From Acidobacteriaceae bacterium (lineage in GTDB: Bacteria; Acidobacteriota; Terriglobia; Terriglobales; Acidobacteriaceae), in the NCBI GenBank assembly GCA_031296325.1, contig JARLFY010000084.1, forward strand, positions 1 through 34,217: DNA of 34,217 nucleotides. Direction: 5' to 3'. Numbering within the stretch: the first letter of the stretch is position 1; each line of letters starts with the position of its first letter. Below the pieces are notes generated by a model. The model ran no database searches, was not told where the DNA came from, and was given only the letters and a program-made list of their open reading frames with translations. The position numbers were made by a program, and so were the translations under genes. Below are positions 1,664 through 34,217 of this stretch, piece by piece.

Positions 1664-1774
1664 AGCATTTCACGGTTATGTAATACAAAATGATATTGTC
1701 ATTCTGAGCGTAGCGATGAATCCCCGCATTTTGCTCGTAGCGCGATAAATTACACCATCGCTGAAAATACTCTA
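1661..1774 (+). repeat. Family A interspersed repeat with an inverted tail piece
   Basis: From about 1695 the sequence carries a full family A unit: TTGTCATTCTGAGCG, then (T)AGCGATGAATCCCCGC, ATTTTGCTCG, and a tail ending TACACCATCGCTGAAAATAC. The same order recurs at 10344, 24932 and 32933. At 1661-1671 the bases TAGAGCATTTC are the reverse complement of the unit's tail end (GAAATGCTCTA), so a partial inverted copy abuts the gene and contains its stop codon. No terminator-like T-run is seen. Confidence 0.75.
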
Positions 1775-1827
1775 AGTCCATCAGAACACACAAACAGCCC
1801 ATCTCTGGATTAGACTTGCGATAAGCC

Positions 1828-4608
1828 ATGAGCAGCGATAACTCAAACTCGAACGAGGAAAAGTCTTCTCCCAATACCGCGCGGCCCGACCTTCACTACG
1901 GCGACTACACTCGTCAAGTCGACGCGTCGTCGCGCAGCAAAGCAGAGCCAGAGTCTGATCAGCCTTCCGCCGCTAGCGAGTCAAACAGCGCAGCGTCCAA
2001 GCCTCCTGTCGGCCACAAGCTGATCGCACTCAGCCTCGCTTTGCTGCTGGTCGCAGTGTTCGTTGTGGTCGGAATCTTTGCCGCGCGCAGCTACGTTCAA
2101 AAGGCGATGCGCGCGAATCTGCCGCAGTTGGACGGTTCGCTGGCGGCCTATGGACTGACCGCGCCGGTCACTGTTACCCGCGATGCGCAGGGAGTTCCGC
2201 ACATTCAGGCAAGCTCGATGGACGACCTCATCTTTGCGCAGGGCTACGTCACGGCGCAGGATCGCTTGTGGCAGATGGATCTGCTGCGTCGCCACGCGGC
2301 TGGCCAACTCGCGGCAATCTTTGGCCGGTCGATGCTGGAACATGATCGCCTACAGCGCACACTGCAACTGCGCGCCGCCGCCGACCGTGCCGTCGTCGCG
2401 CTGCCCGCCGACCAGCTTCACTGGCTGGAGGTCTACGCGCGAGGGGTGAACTCCTCCATCGCCCAACAGAACGCGCACCTGCCCATCGAGTTTCGCCTGC
2501 TCGGTTACAAACCCGCCGCGTGGACTGCGCGCGACTCTATTCTGGTCGAGATGGTTCTGTTTCAGGATCTGACCACCGGCTTCCCGCAGAAGCTGGGCCG
2601 CGAGGCTCTGGCCGCGCATCTTCCGCCTGAGTTGATCGCCGATTTGTACCCCACCGGCTCCTGGCGCGACCACGCTCCCGGTCAGCCGATTCCGGATCTC
2701 TCCGCGCCCCAGCCCGAGATTCCAGATCTTCCGCTTGAGGAGCCGCAATCGAGTCTGCGCCATCCTAAGAAGCCGGGTGCCACCTCCGCATCGGACCTTT
2801 TGGCGCTCCAGCGAACGCTCGCGCTCTTCCACTCTCCCTGCTCCGCCTGCGTCGCCGGATCGAACTCCTGGGCTGTCTCCGGTTTGCATACCGCCTCCGG
2901 CAAGCCGATTCTGTCCAACGACATGCATCTCTCGCTCATGGTTCCGGGACTGTGGTATGAGGCTGACCTGCAAACCACCAACTCCGCGCCAATGGCCAAC
3001 TTCCACGTCGCTGGAGTTACCTTGCCCGGAACGCCCTTCGTCATTGCGGGACACAACGACCACGTCGCCTGGGGATTCACCAACCTCGGAGCGGACGTGC
3101 AGGATCTCTACATCGAGCACACCCGCGGCACTTCCAGCGGAGCCGAGTTCCAGACCGCCAGCGGCACATGGAGTCCTGTTCGCTACCATACCGAGGTGAT
3201 TCAGGTGCGCGGCTCGTCCAACGTCGTACTCGACGTTCCGCTCACCCGCCACGGCGATGCCGACACGCCAATCCTCTCCAGCATCTTCCACGGCGAGCGG
3301 CGCTCAATCAGCCTGCGTTGGACGATCTACGACGCGGCCAACGTCACTGCGCCCTTCTTTGCCGTCAACTCCGCCAGCGACTGGCCCTCGATGCTGGCCG
3401 CGCTCGCCGGCTGGGGAGGGCCTGCGCAGACTCTCGTCTACGCCGACGATCAGGGTCACATTGGATTTCACGCTCTGGGCCGCATTCCCCTGCGCGGAGA
3501 TGCAACCAATCCCAGCGCGCTCTCGCCCGTCCCCACCGACGTCAGCGCGCCCGATGCGCTCAGCCACGAGTGGGCGGGCTACATTCCCTTCGACCAGCTT
3601 CCGCAGGCCTTCGACCCAGCCGACGGAATTCTGGTCACGGCCAACGCACGCGTCACTGCGGATGGCTACCGCTTTCCCATCACCCTCAACTGGATGGCTC
3701 CCTACCGCACCGAGCGCATCTACAAGGTTCTGGCGTCCAACCATCCACTCACTTCGGCAGACATGCTGACGCTACAGACTGATGTCTACTCCGAGCCGGA
3801 TCACATCTTCGCGCAGCGTTTGGCATACTCCATCGACCACACTACAGGCTCGCTGAAGGATGATAAGACGCTTCATCAGGCCGCCGACCTGTTGCGCAAG
3901 TGGAACGGTCGTGTGGACGCCAACGCCAGCGCTCCCGCCATCGTCAACGCGGCGCGCGCTGTCTTCTGGCCGATGCTGCTGATCCCCAAGCTCTCTCCGC
4001 AGGTTGCCGCGCAGCTTGTGCAAGGAGCCGACCTTTCAAAGTCCAAAGGAGTTCCCGCCGATGTTGCGAGCACCGCAAATCTCTGGCAACTCTACACCTG
4101 GGGAGAGCGAGACAGCGTTCTGGAGCAGCTTGTCACGCACGCGCCTGCCCGCTGGCTTCCCTCCGGCTACGCTACATGGGACGACTTTCTCGCCGCCGTC
4201 GTTGCGCGCAGCCTGCGCAACGCCCACGCTCCGCACGACCTTGCCACCTGGCAGATGGGTCGCGCCCTGCCGCTGGAGATCGACCACCCCATCTTCTCCC
4301 ACATTCCCCTCTTCGATCGATTCCTCGGCGTCGCCACCGGAACCGGTCTACAGCAGCAGAGTGGCGACATGACAACAATCAAGCAGGCCGGCAACGCCTT
4401 CGGCCCATCGGAACGCTTTACCGCCGACCTTGCCGACCTAGACCGCACCACGCTGAACATCGTCCTCGGCCAGTCCGGAGACCCGGTCAGCCCGCTATAT
4501 ATGGACCAGTTCCAAAGCTGGCTGCACGGCACTACCTACTCGCTGCCCTATACTCCAGCCGCGACCCAGCCCACCATCACCCACACCCTGACCCTCACGC
4601 CCAGATGA
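1828..4608 (+). CDS. Penicillin acylase family (Ntn-hydrolase) protein, membrane-anchored
   Basis: The 926-residue precursor has a polar N-terminus of about 62 residues and one membrane segment (about 64-86), followed by the penicillin amidase fold. The alpha-chain signature DLIFAQGYVTAQDRLWQMD is at 133-151. The autocatalytic cleavage site and nucleophile are seen as G344-S345 in GSNSWAVSG, where S345 would become the N-terminal serine of the beta chain. HNDHVAWGFTN (409-419) and a C-terminal block with SGDMTTIKQAG and GQSGDPVSPLYMDQF are typical of the family. The family hydrolyses amide bonds of beta-lactams or acyl-homoserine lactones; the substrate here is unknown. The single anchor would place the enzyme on the outer face of the inner membrane. 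The gene overlaps the next one by four bases (ATGA at 4605-4608), so the two are probably co-translated. Confidence 0.92.
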   Translation: MSSDNSNSNEEKSSPNTARPDLHYGDYTRQVDASSRSKAEPESDQPSAASESNSAASKPPVGHKLIALSLALLLVAVFVVVGIFAARSYVQKAMRANLPQLDGSLAAYGLTAPVTVTRDAQGVPHIQASSMDDLIFAQGYVTAQDRLWQMDLLRRHAAGQLAAIFGRSMLEHDRLQRTLQLRAAADRAVVALPADQLHWLEVYARGVNSSIAQQNAHLPIEFRLLGYKPAAWTARDSILVEMVLFQDLTTGFPQKLGREALAAHLPPELIADLYPTGSWRDHAPGQPIPDLSAPQPEIPDLPLEEPQSSLRHPKKPGATSASDLLALQRTLALFHSPCSACVAGSNSWAVSGLHTASGKPILSNDMHLSLMVPGLWYEADLQTTNSAPMANFHVAGVTLPGTPFVIAGHNDHVAWGFTNLGADVQDLYIEHTRGTSSGAEFQTASGTWSPVRYHTEVIQVRGSSNVVLDVPLTRHGDADTPILSSIFHGERRSISLRWTIYDAANVTAPFFAVNSASDWPSMLAALAGWGGPAQTLVYADDQGHIGFHALGRIPLRGDATNPSALSPVPTDVSAPDALSHEWAGYIPFDQLPQAFDPADGILVTANARVTADGYRFPITLNWMAPYRTERIYKVLASNHPLTSADMLTLQTDVYSEPDHIFAQRLAYSIDHTTGSLKDDKTLHQAADLLRKWNGRVDANASAPAIVNAARAVFWPMLLIPKLSPQVAAQLVQGADLSKSKGVPADVASTANLWQLYTWGERDSVLEQLVTHAPARWLPSGYATWDDFLAAVVARSLRNAHAPHDLATWQMGRALPLEIDHPIFSHIPLFDRFLGVATGTGLQQQSGDMTTIKQAGNAFGPSERFTADLADLDRTTLNIVLGQSGDPVSPLYMDQFQSWLHGTTYSLPYTPAATQPTITHTLTLTPR

Positions 4609-6668
4609 ATTCCGACCCAAACCATCCAGCAAAGATCTCGAACAGCAACCTCGCGGACGAGAAGATCTCGGGTGCCCCATCCATCGCGGCCTCATCGCCA
4701 TGGGTGGGATTGTCATGGCTGCTCATCCCTCTGCTCGCGCTGGTCGCCGTCCTACCGCTGATCTTTCATGGAGCCTCCTGCGGCCACGACTTCGACTTCC
4801 ACCTGCTCAGTTGGATGGAGGCGGCGCGCCAGTTCTCCCTCGGCAACCTGCACCCGCACTGGGCCTACACTCCGGCCTACAACGCGGGCGAGCCGCGCTT
4901 CGTCTTTTACCCGCCGCTCTCCTGGACGCTGGGCGCGCTGCTTGGCCTCATTCTCACCCACCTCCCCCACGTCAGCGAGGCCGCCGCCTGGAGCGCCACG
5001 CCGATTCTCTTCACCTGGATCGCCCTCACCCTCTCCGGCTTGACCTTCTATCGCTTGGCCCGCAGCTTTGCAGGTGCGAATGCAGCGCTTCTCGCCGCTG
5101 CGCTCTACCTTGCCAACCCATACATGCTGTTCACCGCCTACGAGCGCACGGCCTACGCCGAACTTCTCGCCGCTGCATGGATTCCGCTGCTTCTCCACGC
5201 CATTCTGCGCCGACGCGTAACCATCCCGCGCATCGCTCTGCCGGTCGCCCTGCTCTGGCTCACCAACGCTCCCGCCGCCGTCATGGGCACCTACACGCTC
5301 GCATTTCTAGCCGCTCTCCGTTTGGCCACAGAAGCCTTCCGAGCCAATCGAGACGCGCATACTGTTCAACGAACCCATGAAAATTGTCTTTCTGACACTG
5401 CACGAAGTGCAGGGGAAGAATCCCCGCATTCCGTCCACAGGGCAAAGCTCTCCATCATATTCTTGGCACTGAAAGTCGCAGCCGGAACCGCTCTTGGCTT
5501 TGCTCTCGCAGCCTTCTATCTCGTCCCCGCCGCCTACGAACGCCGCTTCGTGCAGATTGCGATGGCCACCATCTCCGGCATGCGCATCGACGCCAACTTC
5601 CTCTTCGAGCACACCGGAACCACCGCCGACGACCTGCTCCACGACACCGTTCTGCATACTGCCTCGTCGATCGCCGTCGCCCTCCTCATCACCACTGCAC
5701 TGGCCTTGATTGCCGTATATCTCCTGTGCACAAAGCAGGGCACTTCGGCTGAGAGTGGGGAACTGAGCGACCGATCCAACTTTCCAATTCTTCCTCTCGG
5801 CCTGCTCACCGCCGGGATCGCCTTTCTCCTTGTACCGATCAGCCTGCCTATCTGGAATCACCTGCCGCAGGCCACCTTTCTGCAATTTCCCTGGAGATTG
5901 TTGGCGATCCTCGCTCCGGTCTGCGCGCTCACTCTGGCGCGAGTCTTCACCAACCTGAGTGAGAAGGTAGCCGCCTCGTCTTTCACAACGCGCTGGTTAA
6001 AGAGAATTCGCCCTACCGCAACCGCCTTCGTCGCCGCTACGCTGGCCATAGTCCTGACCGCCGCTCTTGCTCGCCCCGCCGTCCACCGCTTTCGTCAGGT
6101 CTGCGACGACGAGGACACCGCTCCGGCTCGCCTCGCACTCTTCCACTCCGACCTCGGCGCCGATCCCACCGACGAGTACACCCCCGTCACCGCCGACAAC
6201 GACGCACTCAATCCCGAGGGTGCGGTCCACACCCCGGCTCCCGCCTACTGGATAGCTGACACGCCCAATGCGCCATCCCCAACCAGCAGCGCAAAGGCCC
6301 GAACGGACGCCGATGACGATGCAGATGTTTCCGATCATGCCCCGCAGAACGAGGTTGCAACGCAGTCCGCCCCCACAAATCTAGCTCCCACGCACCTCAC
6401 CCTGGCTACACCGCGCGCCGAGTTCCTGATTCTCAACCTGCGCAATTACCCTGCATGGAGCATCACCCGCAACGGCGTAGCGATTCCGCAGGACGAACAG
6501 CGCGAAAACCTGCGCGACGACGGCCTTATCGCCATTGCCCTGCCTGCTGGCCTGTCCACAGTAGACATTCGTTTTGCCTGCACCGCCGACCAGAGCCTTG
6601 GCGACATTCTCACCCTGATCGCCCTCGTCCTCTTGCTTCTAGCGCAACGCAGCGAGGAAATGCTTTAG
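4605..6668 (+). CDS. PTPS-related multi-spanning membrane protein (putative glycosyltransferase-like)
   Basis: The 687-residue protein starts at ATG 4605 inside the stop of the acylase gene (ATGA overlap). The same frame is open upstream only as a shadow. It has about ten or more hydrophobic segments, the first at 35-55, followed by a loop with GHDFDFHLLSWMEAARQF (60-77) and EPRFVFYPPLSW (96-107). These fit the 6-pyruvoyl-tetrahydropterin-synthase-related membrane family (PF10131 type), whose layout resembles PMT/YfhO-type glycosyltransferases. A Pro/Ala/Asp-rich linker (about 550-598) leads to a beta-rich extracytoplasmic segment (AWSITRNG) and a last membrane helix. Two pieces of the interspersed repeat family are read in frame, at residues about 22-36 and about 259-275, and the stop codon sits in a repeat tail. 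The function is inferred from fold only; no catalytic residue is certain. Confidence 0.75.
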   Translation: MNSDPNHPAKISNSNLADEKISGAPSIAASSPWVGLSWLLIPLLALVAVLPLIFHGASCGHDFDFHLLSWMEAARQFSLGNLHPHWAYTPAYNAGEPRFVFYPPLSWTLGALLGLILTHLPHVSEAAAWSATPILFTWIALTLSGLTFYRLARSFAGANAALLAAALYLANPYMLFTAYERTAYAELLAAAWIPLLLHAILRRRVTIPRIALPVALLWLTNAPAAVMGTYTLAFLAALRLATEAFRANRDAHTVQRTHENCLSDTARSAGEESPHSVHRAKLSIIFLALKVAAGTALGFALAAFYLVPAAYERRFVQIAMATISGMRIDANFLFEHTGTTADDLLHDTVLHTASSIAVALLITTALALIAVYLLCTKQGTSAESGELSDRSNFPILPLGLLTAGIAFLLVPISLPIWNHLPQATFLQFPWRLLAILAPVCALTLARVFTNLSEKVAASSFTTRWLKRIRPTATAFVAATLAIVLTAALARPAVHRFRQVCDDEDTAPARLALFHSDLGADPTDEYTPVTADNDALNPEGAVHTPAPAYWIADTPNAPSPTSSAKARTDADDDADVSDHAPQNEVATQSAPTNLAPTHLTLATPRAEFLILNLRNYPAWSITRNGVAIPQDEQRENLRDDGLIAIALPAGLSTVDIRFACTADQSLGDILTLIALVLLLLAQRSEEML
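4670..4710 (+). repeat. Family C hairpin repeat read in frame
   Basis: GGGTGCCCCATCCATCGC is followed by a short loop and CCATGGGTGGGAT. Its near-twin at 12019-12060 has the same left arm (CCACCCATCGC) and right arm (GCGATGGGTGG). Here it is translated as about GAPSIAASSPWVG in the N-terminal tail of the PTPS-related membrane protein. The copy is slightly degraded, with mismatches in both arms. Confidence 0.65.
5382..5431 (+). repeat. Family A head read in frame inside the membrane protein gene
   Basis: ATTGTCTTTCTGACACTGCA, then CGAAGTGCAGGGGAAGAATC and CCCGCATT, match the head of the unit at 10344-10390 almost base for base (ATTGTCATTTTGACACTGCA, CGAAGCGCAGGGGAAGAATC, CCCGTATT). Here the segment is translated as about NCLSDTARSAGEESPH, between two membrane segments. 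It adds a polar loop without breaking the frame. The tail module is missing. Confidence 0.75.
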
Positions 6669-6698
6669 GCATTTTGCTATTGCTTTAGAGCAACTTTG

Positions 6699-6780
6699 CT
6701 TGTCATTCCGCAGCGAAGCGAAGGAATCTGTTTTTTCACTCGCGCCATGGAAATCTATACCATTGGTGAAAATGCTTTAG
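6699..6780 (+). repeat. Family B interspersed repeat unit
   Basis: This is the first of three units that fill the 323-base gap between the convergent PTPS-related gene and rseP. The head TTGTCATTCCGCAGCGAAGC is followed by GAAGGAATCTG, and then a tail with CTCGCGCC and ATACCATTGGTGAAAATGCT like the family A tail. A separate tail scrap, GAAATGCTTTAGGCATTT at about 6656-6673, overlaps the end of the membrane protein gene. No gene was seen in the gap. Confidence 0.75.
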
Positions 6781-6857
6781 GCATTTCACTCAAGGGTGTA
6801 GATCGCGACACCGCGAGCGAAATGCGGGGATTCTTCGCTCCGCTCAGAATAACAATT
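6778..6857 (-). repeat. Family A interspersed repeat unit, inverted
   Basis: Read on the minus strand this begins TTGTTATTCTGAGCGGAGCG, continues AAGAATCCCCGCATTTCGC, and ends with the tail TACACCCTTGAGTGAAATGC. It abuts the tail of the family B unit at 6699-6780, so the two form a tail-to-tail inverted arrangement around TTTAGGCATTT. Confidence 0.75.
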
Positions 6858-6884
6858 CATTTGTGGTCAAGGGATTGCAATGTT

Positions 6885-6968
6885 TAAGGCGTTTCGGTAA
6901 TGGTGTAGACCGTCTTGGAGCGAGCAACAGTAGATTCCTTCACTTTGCTACGGAATGACAAGCAAATT
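6885..6968 (-). repeat. Family B interspersed repeat unit, inverted
   Basis: The minus strand reads AATTTGCTTGTCATTCCGTA, GCAAAGTGAAGGAATCTAC, then a tail with GCTCGCTCCAAG and CTACACCATTACCGAAACGC. It is the third unit in this gap and lies 23 bases before the rseP stop codon. It is more diverged than the other two. Confidence 0.7.
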
Positions 6969-6991
6969 GGGCTACAGCAATTCGGAAAATG

Positions 6992-9595: not shown

Positions 9596-10285
9596 CTAGT
9601 GCGAGGCGAAGGTCTTGTCCTCGGCGTTGCAGAGCGGTTCCAGCGGGCAATCGGCGCAGCGAGGCTTGCGCGCGACGCATATGGCGCGTCCGTGAGCGAT
9701 GATGCGGTGGGTGAAGTCTATCCACTCCGATTGCGGAAGAATCTGCATCAGGTCGCGCTCGACCTTCTCCGGCGTGGTCTCTTTTGTGAGTTCGAGGCGG
9801 TGGGCGATCCGCAGAACGTGCGTGTCCACCACGACCCCGTCGGCGATTTTGAACCACGAGCCGAGGACGACGTTGGCCGTCTTGCGCGCGACGCCGGGGA
9901 TGCGCAACAGCTCGTCGATCGTCTGCGGAACCTTGCCGCCGAACTCTTCCGTAACGACTCGCCCCGCGCCCTGAATCGACTTCGCCTTGTTGCGAAAGAA
10001 GCCGGTAGTGCGGATTAGCTCTTCCAGTTCAGGAAGACTTGCGGCGGCCATAGCTCTGGGCGTGGGGAAGGTCTTGAAGAGTGCAGGAGTGACCAGATTA
10101 ACGCGCACATCGGTACACTGCGCCGACAAGATGGTGGCGACCATAAGCTGCCATGCGCTCTTGTGGTCGAGCGCGCAAACGGCCTTCGGGTAGGTTTTCT
10201 GTAGCGCGTCGAGAATAGCGTTTACGCGCTCTGGACGGATGGCGTCGCCAGCCTTGCGCCGAGTTGATTTCTTCGCTGCTTCCAT
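9596..10285 (-). CDS. nth: Endonuclease III (DNA glycosylase/AP lyase)
   Basis: A 229-residue base-excision repair enzyme that removes oxidised pyrimidines and nicks abasic sites. The helix-hairpin-helix LLRIPGVARKTANVVLG (126-142) carries the catalytic lysine K135, and VVDTHVLR (152-159) carries the catalytic aspartate D154. The C-terminal 4Fe-4S loop is complete: C203, C210, C213 and C219 in C-X6-C-X2-C-X5-C spacing. The N-terminal 20 residues are basic. The start at ATG 10285 is the only plausible one. It is the first gene of the nth-dxr-rseP group and diverges from cdd, with a repeat in the shared upstream region. Confidence 0.96.
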   Translation of the reverse strand: MEAAKKSTRRKAGDAIRPERVNAILDALQKTYPKAVCALDHKSAWQLMVATILSAQCTDVRVNLVTPALFKTFPTPRAMAAASLPELEELIRTTGFFRNKAKSIQGAGRVVTEEFGGKVPQTIDELLRIPGVARKTANVVLGSWFKIADGVVVDTHVLRIAHRLELTKETTPEKVERDLMQILPQSEWIDFTHRIIAHGRAICVARKPRCADCPLEPLCNAEDKTFASH

Positions 10286-10343: not shown

Positions 10344-10433
10344 GTATTGTCATTTTGACACTGCACGAAGCGCAGGGGAAGAATCCCCGTATTTTGCTCG
10401 GTGCGCGATACTCTAACAACATTGGCAGAAATT
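10344..10433 (+). repeat. Family A repeat between divergent nth and cdd
   Basis: TATTGTCATTTTGACACTGC, ACGAAGCGCAGGGGAAGAAT and CCCCGTATTTTGCTCG are followed by a tail GCGCGATACTCTAACAACAT and TGGCAGAAATTC. The tail ends only a few bases before the ribosome binding site of cdd. The head is the closest relative of the in-frame copy at 5382. Confidence 0.7.
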
Positions 10434-10446
10434 CAAGGTGGACTCT

Positions 10447-10908: not shown

Positions 10909-12450
10909 GTGAACATCCATCCGATTGACGTGATCCAACACAAGCGCGACGGACTTGTCTTGTCCGACGCAGAGATTCAGGGCTTCATTCAGGCGTTGGT
11001 CGAGCGTCGCTCCCCCGCCGACACGCCGACCGACGCGCAGACCGCCGCTCTGTTGATGGCGATTCTCATTCGCGGCCTCAATCCGCAGGAACTGGCCGCG
11101 CTGACGCAGGCGATGCGCTTCTCCGGCGAGACGCTCGACACCTCCTCGCTCGGCTCGTTCACGGTCGACAAACACTCCACTGGCGGCGTTGGTGACAAGG
11201 CCTCGCTGCTAATCGCGCCGATCATCGCCGCCGCTGGCGCACCCACAACCAGCGGCGAACCCTACAGCCTCTGCGACCCGATGATCTCTGGACGCTCGCT
11301 CGGCCACACCGGAGGTACGCTGGACAAGCTGGAGACGATCCCTGGCTTCCGCACCCAGCTTCCCCTGCCGGAGTTTTTGGCAATCCTCGGGAAATGCGGC
11401 TTCGCCATGGCCGGACAGACCCCGACGCTGGTTCCCGCCGACCGCATCCTCTACGCGCTGCGCGACCACACCGGAACGGTCGAGTCGCCGTACCTCATCA
11501 CCGCCAGCATTATGAGCAAGAAGCTCGCCTCCGGCCTGAACGCGCTGGTTCTCGACGTGAAGACCGGCTCGGGAGCCTTTCTCTCGCGCTACGAGGACGC
11601 GCAACTGCTGGCGCGTCTGATGGTCGAGACCGGCGAGTTGGCAGGAACGCGCACCGTCGCGCTGCTCACCTCGATGGATCAGCCGCTTGGTCGCTTTAGC
11701 GGCAACTGGGTCGAGGTGCAGGAGTGTCTCGAACTCTTCCAGCACTTCTCGCCCGATTGCGCCTTCACCCTGCCGCCGGAGAAGCTGCGCCTCTCGGCAG
11801 ATCTGCTCGCTTTGACCCACGCTCTTACCGGCCAGATGCTCTACCTCGGCGGCAAGGCGGCAACGCCAGAGACGGGCGCGCAGCTCTCCGCGCAACTTCT
11901 CGCCGACGGTTCGGCTTATCGTCACTTTCTACAGATGGTGGAGCTACAAACCGCTCAACCTTTGTTGTCATCCCGCAGCGAAGCGGAGGGATCTGCTTCC
12001 CTCGCTAGCCACGAACGCCGGGTGCCCCACCCATCGCAGTCTCACCGCGATGGGTGGGATTCGATTCCCAAATGCACAAGCGAGTCCCCCTATCTCGCAG
12101 CCTTCGCCAACCCCGCCGCCTTTCACAAGCCAACCGCGACACGCACCCTCACCGCCGACCGCGCGGGTTTTCTCGCCGCGATGGACTGCACCAAGATTGG
12201 CTGGGCGGTGCAGCGACTCGGAGCGGGGAGGACGCATCCTGGCGCGCCGGTCAGCGCTCACGCCGGCATCGAGATGCACGCCAAGCTCGGAGACCGTATC
12301 GCCATCGGTCAGCCGCTAGCAACGCTCTTCAGCGAAGATGCCGCGCTGCTCGATGAACCGGAAGCAATGCTGCGCGAGACGCTCGAAATCGCCGATGCGC
12401 CGCCTACGCCGATTCCGCTTATCCGCGAGATTATTGTGAAGAAGTCGTAG
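10909..12450 (+). CDS. deoA: Thymidine/pyrimidine-nucleoside phosphorylase with in-frame repeat insertion
   Basis: A 513-residue enzyme, against about 440 for typical family members. It cleaves thymidine or deoxyuridine with phosphate to the base and deoxyribose 1-phosphate. The signature KHSTGGVGDKASL (88-100), SGRSLGHTGGTLDKLE (127-142) and SIMSKKLASG (200-209) are clear. Two additions stand out. About ten residues (GAPTTSGEPYSLCD, 110-123) replace a three-residue link just before SGR. About 45 residues (351-395), encoded by two copies of the interspersed repeats, sit between the alpha/beta domain and the C-terminal domain (LTADRAGF, MDCTKIG, GAGR, HAKLGD). The start is GTG 10909 without a strong ribosome binding site, 27 bases after cdd. 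The end overlaps a convergent gene by 20 bases. Whether the enzyme is active with the insert cannot be seen. Confidence 0.9.
   Translation: MNIHPIDVIQHKRDGLVLSDAEIQGFIQALVERRSPADTPTDAQTAALLMAILIRGLNPQELAALTQAMRFSGETLDTSSLGSFTVDKHSTGGVGDKASLLIAPIIAAAGAPTTSGEPYSLCDPMISGRSLGHTGGTLDKLETIPGFRTQLPLPEFLAILGKCGFAMAGQTPTLVPADRILYALRDHTGTVESPYLITASIMSKKLASGLNALVLDVKTGSGAFLSRYEDAQLLARLMVETGELAGTRTVALLTSMDQPLGRFSGNWVEVQECLELFQHFSPDCAFTLPPEKLRLSADLLALTHALTGQMLYLGGKAATPETGAQLSAQLLADGSAYRHFLQMVELQTAQPLLSSRSEAEGSASLASHERRVPHPSQSHRDGWDSIPKCTSESPYLAAFANPAAFHKPTATRTLTADRAGFLAAMDCTKIGWAVQRLGAGRTHPGAPVSAHAGIEMHAKLGDRIAIGQPLATLFSEDAALLDEPEAMLRETLEIADAPPTPIPLIREIIVKKS
11963..11998 (+). repeat. Family B head read in frame inside deoA
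   Basis: TTGTCATCCCGCAGCGAAGC followed by GGAGGGATCTGCTT matches the heads at 6699 and 16059 (TTGTCATTCCG, AGCGAAGCGGAGGAATCTGC). It is translated as LLSSRSEAEGSA. The match is close enough to indicate a recent insertion. Confidence 0.8.
12019..12060 (+). repeat. Family C hairpin repeat read in frame inside deoA
   Basis: CCACCCATCGC (12027-12037) and GCGATGGGTGG (12047-12057) form a perfect 11-base inverted repeat with a 9-base loop. It is translated as about VPHPSQSHRDGWD. It lies 20 bases after the family B head, so the two repeat types are stacked here. It looks like a terminator stem but has no T-run and sits in the middle of a coding sequence. Confidence 0.75.
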
Positions 12451-16048: not shown

Positions 16049-16058
16049 GTTCTTTGCT

Positions 16059-16093
16059 TGTCATTCCGTAGCGAAGCGGAGGAATCTGCTTTT
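16059..16093 (+). repeat. Family B repeat head
   Basis: TTGTCATTCCGTAGCGAAGC followed by GGAGGAATCTGC is the same head as at 6699 and 11963. The tail is reduced to TTTTGCATTTG. It lies between the pdxS terminator and argS. Confidence 0.75.
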
Positions 16094-16195
16094 GCATTTG
16101 CCGTTGCCTAGTCTCCTCCATCCACCTAGCACAGCTCTACTCCGGTACACTAGTTCCTGCGCCCAAATACTTCGCGCAACGGATAAGACAGACGG

Positions 16196-24931: not shown

Positions 24932-25012
24932 ATTGTCATTCTGAGCGTAGCGAAGAATCCTAGGATTTTGCTCGCGGTGCGATACGTTACACCATTGCTG
25001 AAAATGCTCTAA
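24932..25012 (+). repeat. Family A interspersed repeat unit
   Basis: ATTGTCATTCTGAGCGTAGC, GAAGAATCCTAGGATTTTGC, TCGCGGTGCGATACGTTACA and CCATTGCTGAAAATGCTCTAA form a full-length unit, one of the best-preserved copies. It lies in the 265-base gap between the convergent mtnA and GGDEF-EAL genes. Confidence 0.8.
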
Positions 25013-25037
25013 TGAGGTAGCCCGTAGCGAGCAGAAG

Positions 25038-25075
25038 CAGATTCCTCCGCTTCGCTGCGGAATGACAATCAAATT
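25038..25075 (-). repeat. Family B repeat head, inverted
   Basis: The minus strand reads AATTTGATTGTCATTCCGCA, GCGAAGCGGAGGAATCTG. It faces the family A unit at 24932-25012 tail to tail, as in the cluster at 6699-6857, with a shortened tail between (GAGCAGAAG side). Confidence 0.75.
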
Positions 25076-25092
25076 GGTTGAAATCGCAAGAA

Positions 25093-31835: not shown

Positions 31836-32909
31836 ATGGCTAGCAAAGATTTCACAATCAATCCGGAGCCGGTTCGCTCCGCCAAGCAACTCGGCATTCA
31901 ATCCGACAATGCGTTTTCAGAGGCCTCGAAGCGCCTGTGCGGACGCGATCTTTGCTCCATCGCCGACCTGACGGTGGAGGAGATGGCGGCGATTATGGAG
32001 CTGTCGCACGCGGTGAAGGGGAATCCCGAGGACTTTCGCCACTCGCTCGATGGGCGGCAGATGGTGCTGTTCTTCGAGAAGGCATCGCTGCGCACACGGC
32101 TGACGTTTGAGGCAGCGATCAACACGCTGGGCGGCAACGCGATCTTCGTCGATCAGACGCAGTCTCCGCTGGGCGAGCGTGAGTCGCTGGCCGATATGGC
32201 GCACAACATTGAGCGATGGATGAGCGCGATCGTCTTGCGCACCTACGCGCACGAGACGATCACGGAGATGGCCGCCTGCTCGCGCATTCCGGTCATCAAT
32301 GCGCTGTCGGACTTCGAGCATCCCTGTCAGGCGATTGCGGACTTCTTCACGCTGGAGGAACGCTTCGGATCGGCGCAGGGCCTGCGCTTTACCTATGTGG
32401 GCGATGGCAATAATGTCTGTCACTCGCTGATGTTGACGGCGGCGCAGCTCGGTGTGCATTGCACGGTTGCCAGCCCCAAGGGATTCGCGCCCAAGCTGGA
32501 TATTATTCACAAGGCGATCGAGATCAGCGAGCAGACTGGTGGAAGCATTACGTTGATGCAGGATCCGGTGAAGGCCGTCGATGGCGCGGACGCTGTTTAC
32601 ACAGACGTTTGCACCAGCATGGGATTTGAGCATGAAGCGACCAAGCGCGCGCCGATCTTTCAGCCGTATCAGGTGAACGAGGCGCTGATGGCCCATGCGC
32701 GGCAGGACGCTGTGTTTATGCACTGTCTTCCGGCGCATCGCAACGCCGAGGTTACCGATGCAGTGCTTGATGGGCCGCAGTCGGTGGTCTTCGATCAGGC
32801 GGAGAATCGGATGCATGCACAGAAGGCGATTCTGCTGATGCTGCTGGGCGGCGCGAAGAGAATCTCCAATGCGCGCGACAAGGGATTGCAAGCACGCAAG
32901 CGAAGCTAG
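31836..32909 (+). CDS. argF: Ornithine carbamoyltransferase
   Basis: A 357-residue enzyme forming citrulline from ornithine and carbamoyl phosphate. The carbamoyl phosphate motif is EKASLRTRL (81-89), so STRT is SLRT here. HPCQ (162-165), SMG (261-263) and HCLPAHR (296-302) are present, along with VVFDQAENRMHAQKAIL near the end. The N-terminus is about 35 residues longer than in E. coli. GGAG nine bases before ATG 31836 supports the start. SLRT-type loops are known in acetyl- and succinyl-ornithine transcarbamylases as well as in some true OTCases; the SMG and HCLPAHR signatures favour ornithine as substrate. Confidence 0.92.
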   Translation: MASKDFTINPEPVRSAKQLGIQSDNAFSEASKRLCGRDLCSIADLTVEEMAAIMELSHAVKGNPEDFRHSLDGRQMVLFFEKASLRTRLTFEAAINTLGGNAIFVDQTQSPLGERESLADMAHNIERWMSAIVLRTYAHETITEMAACSRIPVINALSDFEHPCQAIADFFTLEERFGSAQGLRFTYVGDGNNVCHSLMLTAAQLGVHCTVASPKGFAPKLDIIHKAIEISEQTGGSITLMQDPVKAVDGADAVYTDVCTSMGFEHEATKRAPIFQPYQVNEALMAHARQDAVFMHCLPAHRNAEVTDAVLDGPQSVVFDQAENRMHAQKAILLMLLGGAKRISNARDKGLQARKRS

Positions 32910-32932
32910 ATTATTTTTATGCTTGATGGAAG

Positions 32933-34217
<1,285 letters not shown>

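Follow-up and report, generated by a model that had tools for sequence, protein, structure and literature searches.

The deoA gene in the window (the whole stretch of 34,217 nucleotides analysed here) carries two different interspersed repeats, a family B head and a family C hairpin, and its reading frame stays open through both. The finding is sound and is wider than its first reading in the earlier note, which had described this pair. The repeats recur across the genome, the segment is absent from orthologues, similar inserts lie in other core genes, and the families differ between species at the same loops. Both deoA repeats were found where they had first been described, without a stop codon; their translation, like any effect on the enzyme, is a prediction from the sequence. 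The gene and its repeats are as follows.

10909 to 12450, plus strand: deoA, thymidine/pyrimidine-nucleoside phosphorylase, 513 amino acids, frame open through both repeats.
11962 to 12000, plus strand: family B repeat head, in frame in deoA; core at 11967 to 11994, read as LLSSRSEAEGSAS.
12016 to 12084, plus strand: 69-nt insert in deoA with a family C hairpin at 12019 to 12061; residues 370 to 392; the sister gene is without this insert.

The B core in deoA matched the genome-wide B pattern exactly, as did the left arm of the hairpin the C pattern, and the hairpin was 88% identical to a second copy at 4669 to 4711 of the window. From our reading of the alignments, the head would begin at about residue 352 and the C insert would correspond to residues 370 to 392. 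About 45 added residues (351 to 395) had been proposed; the extension is real and its length slightly less, at 41 codons more than in the nearest insert-free relatives, L003 to L007. Between the same anchors there are 92 codons in the window gene, 77 in L002, and 51 in L003 to L007. Pfam placed Glycos_trans_3N at residues 7 to 73 of DeoA, Glycos_transf_3 at 85 to 337, and PYNP_C at 422 to 495. The repeat segment falls between the end of the second domain and the start of the third and, as first described, between conserved parts of the enzyme. Solved relatives, of which 1brw was the best, aligned on either side of it.

An AlphaFold2 model of DeoA, built on a shallow alignment of 15 sequences, reached a pTM of 0.76 and a mean pLDDT of 72.8 (the other four models scored 48 to 59). 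Residues 351 to 391 had a pLDDT of about 30 and no secondary structure and were flanked by helices at 335 to 348 and 397 to 400. This was the longest stretch with a pLDDT below 50; there were four others, the longest at 205 to 221. The residues encoded by the repeats probably form a disordered loop that the enzyme tolerates.

A deoA match was present in 57 of the 60 same-genus genomes searched, and in most of these it was split, with one part stopping near residue 348 and the next starting near residue 396. Thirty deoA loci were obtained for the 57 genomes, namely, the window's own (L001) and 29 others, which were aligned. Twenty-eight of the 29 lacked the repeat segment, so the insert is not commonly shared; the family B head was missing from L003 to L030, and L024, among the 28, had about ten other extra residues slightly further on. 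The exception was the nearest relative, L002, which carried a family-A-like repeat at the same spot and no hairpin. A pattern search of the 29 loci gave zero A, B, or C copies, though the A-like head that L002 carries escapes these patterns. In a second set of 14 named relatives, 13 had no insert at this place. The remaining one, L031 (Granulicella sp. bog_404 MAG), encodes a DeoA 84% identical to that of the window and carries a family-A-like head. L002 and L031 are probably one contig, because both end 193 bases from deoA.

In the DNA alignment, the 69-nt C insert was present in the window gene and absent from the sister. The hairpin would thus be younger than the split of the two species, unless the sister lost it. 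The ends of this insert showed, in our reading of the alignment, at most a 3-nt CGA repeat. The two genes have different heads, each of which starts after one shared CCT codon, and the frames in which these heads lie also differ. Judged from these alignments, either the heads were inserted twice or one replaced the other.

We searched the genome itself, a 2.6-Mb draft of 94 contigs that is 88.8% complete, for the three families. With up to 3 mismatches allowed, there were 319 copies of B and 155 of A; with up to 2, there were 90 of C. Reversed-pattern controls for A, B, and C gave 0 each. The repeats therefore recur genome-wide, as the first reading required, and all three are high-copy dispersed repeats, as protein-coding palindromic repeats are. 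The consensus was TTTGTCATTC for B and aTTGTCATTC for A. Across 62 genomes of the genus, the number of B copies ranged from 0 to 319, with at least one in 49; four other genomes (G058, G010, G012, and G017) had 92 to 183. Of 199 genomes taken from across the phylum, 23 had family A, the organism's own genome counted in.

Several B copies sit at contig ends of the own assembly (G000; C2:99, C3:60, C21:54, C39:150, C40:60, and C46:50), and inverted B pairs (B+/B−) spaced 80 to 99 nt apart occurred in 7 cases. Together these suggest that the assembly is broken by a longer repeat whose copies are near-identical. Rfam gave 0 matches to the window. The transposase family Y1_Tnp (PF01797) also gave 0 matches, here against the 88.8% complete genome, and this absence argues against a RAYT as the mobilizer.

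The first reading had also held that the same sequences occur elsewhere in the window as noncoding repeats. Intergenic copies were indeed found, and a second gene, at 4605 to 6668, also carries an in-frame repeat. The further copies and this gene are listed here.

1695 to 1775, plus strand: family A copy, intergenic.
4605 to 6668, plus strand: gene of 687 amino acids, no Pfam match, two further repeats; membrane-like by our reading of its hydrophobic sequence.
4669 to 4711, plus strand: family C hairpin at the N terminus of the 4605 to 6668 gene, residues ~22 to 36.
5383 to 5430, plus strand: family-A-like repeat, in frame in the 4605 to 6668 gene.
6694 to 6743, plus strand: family B copy, intergenic.
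6809 to 6868, minus strand: family A copy, intergenic.
6919 to 6970, minus strand: family B copy, intergenic.
10346 to 10410, plus strand: family-A-like copy, between the gene at 9596 to 10285 and the gene starting at 10438.
16052 to 16101, plus strand: family B copy, intergenic.
24932 to 25012, plus strand: family A copy, intergenic.
25026 to 25077, minus strand: family B copy, intergenic.
32932 to 33012, plus strand: family A copy, past the gene ending at 32909.

The orthologue match to the 4605 to 6668 gene was interrupted in many genomes, where it ended at residues 241 to 250 and resumed at residues 275 to 292.

Counting copies in frame within genes had been proposed as a check, and it was carried out on a sample. 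Stretches (140 in all) were taken around 100 of the 319 B, all 90 C, and 100 of the 155 A copies; three of 143 planned regions, on contig C93, were left out. With the window they make 801 kb, or 31% of the genome, chosen around repeat copies. This sample held 341 copies (158 B, 116 A, and 67 C, the last with up to 1 mismatch), and the reversed control gave 0. A codon score, which picked the right frame in 88 of 88 known-gene windows (an optimistic figure, the same genes having been used for training), classified 298 copies; the other 43 were edge cases too near the end of a stretch. Twenty-four of the 298 were in frame and open through both coding flanks, within 19 open frames. This class needs both flanks to be coding-like on one strand and so misses genes broken beyond recognition. 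Seventeen of the 19 frames had a Pfam family over its curated cutoff, one had a match below the cutoff, and one had none.

The hosts include DeoA, MnmG (three repeats), valyl-tRNA synthetase (ValRS; B and C), and isoleucyl-tRNA synthetase (IleRS; C). Others are a tRNA-guanine transglycosylase (TGT), a MurD-like ligase, a transcription-repair coupling factor-like helicase, an NAD(P)H-hydrate dehydratase, an OmpR-type regulator with the repeat in its linker, an MFS carrier, and further proteins. When ValRS, MnmG, TGT, and MurD were compared with solved structures, there were large gaps at the inserts, plus some other gaps. Copies lie in frame within otherwise conserved genes and are absent from other orthologues.

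What of the copies with coding flanks on one strand that were not in frame? Were broken genes to persist, their frames would be expected to reach a repeat and end within it. For those whose flanks were in different frames, 20 of 20 had an upstream stop 37 to 141 nt before the repeat, and for those whose flanks shared a frame with stops, the stop came before the repeat in 12 of 12. All 32 therefore follow the stop of the upstream frame. The position of the 20 (A, B, and C copies) just past a stop is a REP-like placement, partly forced by the sampling, as coding flanks were taken from 70 nt outwards. The window copy at 4669 is one of the 20, and a different open frame runs across it, so that this copy may be read in frame at an N terminus; the true start of the 4605 to 6668 gene could lie after the hairpin. 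None of the copies classified in the 801-kb sample interrupts a gene, which agrees with the removal of harmful insertions, with the proviso that genes too decayed to score escape the count.

The in-gene forward B copies of the own genome shared a single frame (7 of 7), and the forward A copies likewise shared one (6 of 6), although a second frame is open in most copies. This preference is post hoc and serves as a lead only. Over all copies, the open fractions of the three frames were 0.57, 0.83, and 0.92 for forward B and 0.98, 0.97, and 0.03 for forward A. Two sister copies (L031 deoA and L225) lie, by our reading of the alignment, in another frame, against the preference. Hydrophilicity was tried as a rule for the choice of frame and set aside: the frame in use was the most hydrophilic open one for 15 of 24 copies, where 10.3 were expected (P = 0.04), a weak effect, and family C mostly breaks the rule (2 of 7).

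The inserts turn over between species at the same loops. At the ValRS loop where the own genome carries B, L198 also has B and L199 has an A-type peptide; the sister L197 is without both. In MnmG, 9 of 13 orthologous loci had one or more copies of A, B, or C. All three families occur at the first MnmG loop, and at the last one the own copy of B points forward and that of L213 is reversed. The orthologous loci of four proteins, 52 in total, contained 19 in-gene copies, and 19 of 19 were open for 150 nt on each side, with 0 copies in the reversed control. Thirteen of these had 0 or 1 mismatch, five had 2, and one had 3, so that a few could be weak calls; the patterns used on the 52 loci missed the A-like heads of L002 and L199.

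Three further observations were made in relatives. A family A repeat at G031:C4:178137-178161 splits the ValRS match at about residue 687 within a 1,013-amino-acid open frame, at a site different from both ValRS sites of the own genome. One genome has two mnmG-like matches (G017:C29 and G017:C30), with open frames of 714 and 881 amino acids. At L104:3025-7485, a single frame of 1,487 amino acids joins a sodium:solute symporter (SSF), a beta-lactamase-like domain, and NamZ (exo-beta-N-acetylmuramidase), with two B copies at domain junctions. A fusion made by the repeats was considered for L104 and rejected: a matching frame of at least 1,258 amino acids occurs in 33 of 40 other same-genus genomes searched, which makes the fusion older than its B copies.

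We consider it very probable, from these sequence comparisons, that A, B, and C are short, high-copy, nonautonomous interspersed repeats of a REP/MITE-like kind in a Granulicella-like soil acidobacterium, kept only where they are in frame in permissive loops, the probably disordered DeoA loop among them. Copies would insert at many sites, and those that break genes would be lost. Open copies that happen to be in frame at permissive surface loops or linkers would survive and be translated. In deoA, a head repeat separates the alpha/beta domain from the C-terminal one, and the C hairpin would have joined this head once the lineage had split from its nearest sampled relative. We infer the insertion by mobility, the purging of broken copies, the translation, and the near-neutrality for the enzyme. 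Weighing against this reading are the 0 matches to PF01797 in the 88.8% complete genome and the incomplete state of that 94-contig draft.

A different history for the shared loops would be descent, in deoA, ValRS, and MnmG, of all families at one loop from one old insert that was converted or diverged. The window deoA and its sister do share AGCCACGAA and more flank beside their differing heads, and common origin was the favoured view for RPE-4, -6, and -7 in Rickettsia (PMC3767692). Against this, the nearest relative is without the ValRS B copy and without two MnmG copies (A and reverse B), three families occur at one MnmG loop, and B lies in opposite orientations at another in two species. 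We regard such a single old insert as unlikely.

The in-gene hairpins might instead be kept for a role in RNA (mRNA stability or pausing) or in DNA structure, with the coding effect incidental. Family C forms a long hairpin; A and B vary in palindromicity, and three of six folded window copies beat their shuffles. These three lie well inside genes: the deoA C hairpin (−28.7 kcal/mol, z of −3.63, 0 of 200 shuffles as stable), the deoA B copy (−19.8 kcal/mol, z of −2.50), and the A-like copy at 5383 (−16.6 kcal/mol, z of −2.87). Their stability leaves room for a role at the RNA level. The other three, one of them at a gene N terminus, had z values of −0.96, −0.72, and −0.29, zero Rfam families matched the window, and the repeat families found at a given loop differ from species to species, all of which speaks against it. 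Taken together, we judge a primary RNA or DNA role improbable. Decay of deoA into a nonfunctional gene that is open by chance is very hard to credit: GC-rich DNA readily yields long open frames, and the assembly is an incomplete draft, but conserved blocks flank the insert (84% identity to the sister, 55 to 81% to the 13 others), codon scores on both sides of the repeats favour one frame, and similar inserts occur in ValRS and MnmG.

Nonautonomous repeats kept in permissive loops have known counterparts, and the Rickettsia precedent cited at the outset holds, though the behaviour is not confined to that genus. The palindromic elements of Rickettsia (RPE-4, -6, and -7) and Wolbachia are likewise short repeats in many core genes that leave frames unbroken. 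RPE-4, -6, and -7 are reported from tRNA synthetases and other core genes; orthologues carry different groups at nearby sites, the inserts are exposed to solvent, and ATGAC is a frequent motif (PMC3767692). The A and B heads have this motif as GTCAT. Unlike those elements, ours belong to another phylum and high-GC DNA, and A, B, and C have other sequences as compared by eye. At the Rickettsia sites studied, an insert is kept by all orthologues, whereas 28 of our 29 aligned deoA orthologues are without the segment.

Intragenic REPs are also described from several other genera, where clusters of them encode 43 to 82 residues and some tRNA synthetases bear REPs (PMC3733652). The CGTC-tagged REPs of that paper are palindromic, as is family C by its fold and, to a varying degree, A and B copies; our families resemble them in being grouped, with intragenic copies and no dedicated transposase known. 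They differ in that T precedes GTC in A and B, so that the CGTC tag is absent; the part of the paper that we draw on names five phyla for CGTC repeats, and Acidobacteria are not among them. GTAG-tagged REPs with RAYT transposases are, in the same paper (PMC3733652), palindromes that are similarly high-copy and sometimes intragenic; the A, B, and C consensuses are without GTAG, and PF01797 is absent from the 88.8% complete genome. Like MITEs, the repeats are noncoding and dispersed, with some inverted pairs (the seven B+/B− cases). The MITE hallmarks are terminal inverted repeats and a target-site duplication, against which the deoA C insert offers at most CGA at its ends.

Granulicella aggregans appears in a table of a REP analysis (PMC12306157), and a literature search combining palindromic elements, in-frame insertion, and Acidobacteria found Di Nocera 2013. 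In the literature outside subscription papers and supplements, there was no match for the peptide CHSERSEES or the string GTCATTCTGAGCG. Among the papers listed, subscription papers excluded, neither these families, nor this phylum, nor a mixture of families at one loop was found. The kind of event was already known from Rickettsia, Wolbachia, and REPs.

With these data, the in-frame insertion of repeats reaches the Acidobacteriota, where other repeat families take part, and the hosts (MnmG, ValRS, IleRS, MurD, TGT, and DeoA) provide a natural map of where core enzymes tolerate insertions. Close species that differ in having or lacking a copy offer a direct test of whether inserts are neutral, selected, or removed. 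For annotation the inserts are a warning, as peptides like CHSERSEESPHF or LSSRSEAEGS can be translated repeat DNA. Our tentative view, for which we claim less than even odds, is that across the genus core proteins have been lengthened repeatedly by several unrelated families at the same few permissive loops, with selection acting on the reading frame itself. If true, repeat DNA would steadily supply proteins with new loops that have passed a reading-frame filter, in what is probably a free-living lineage.
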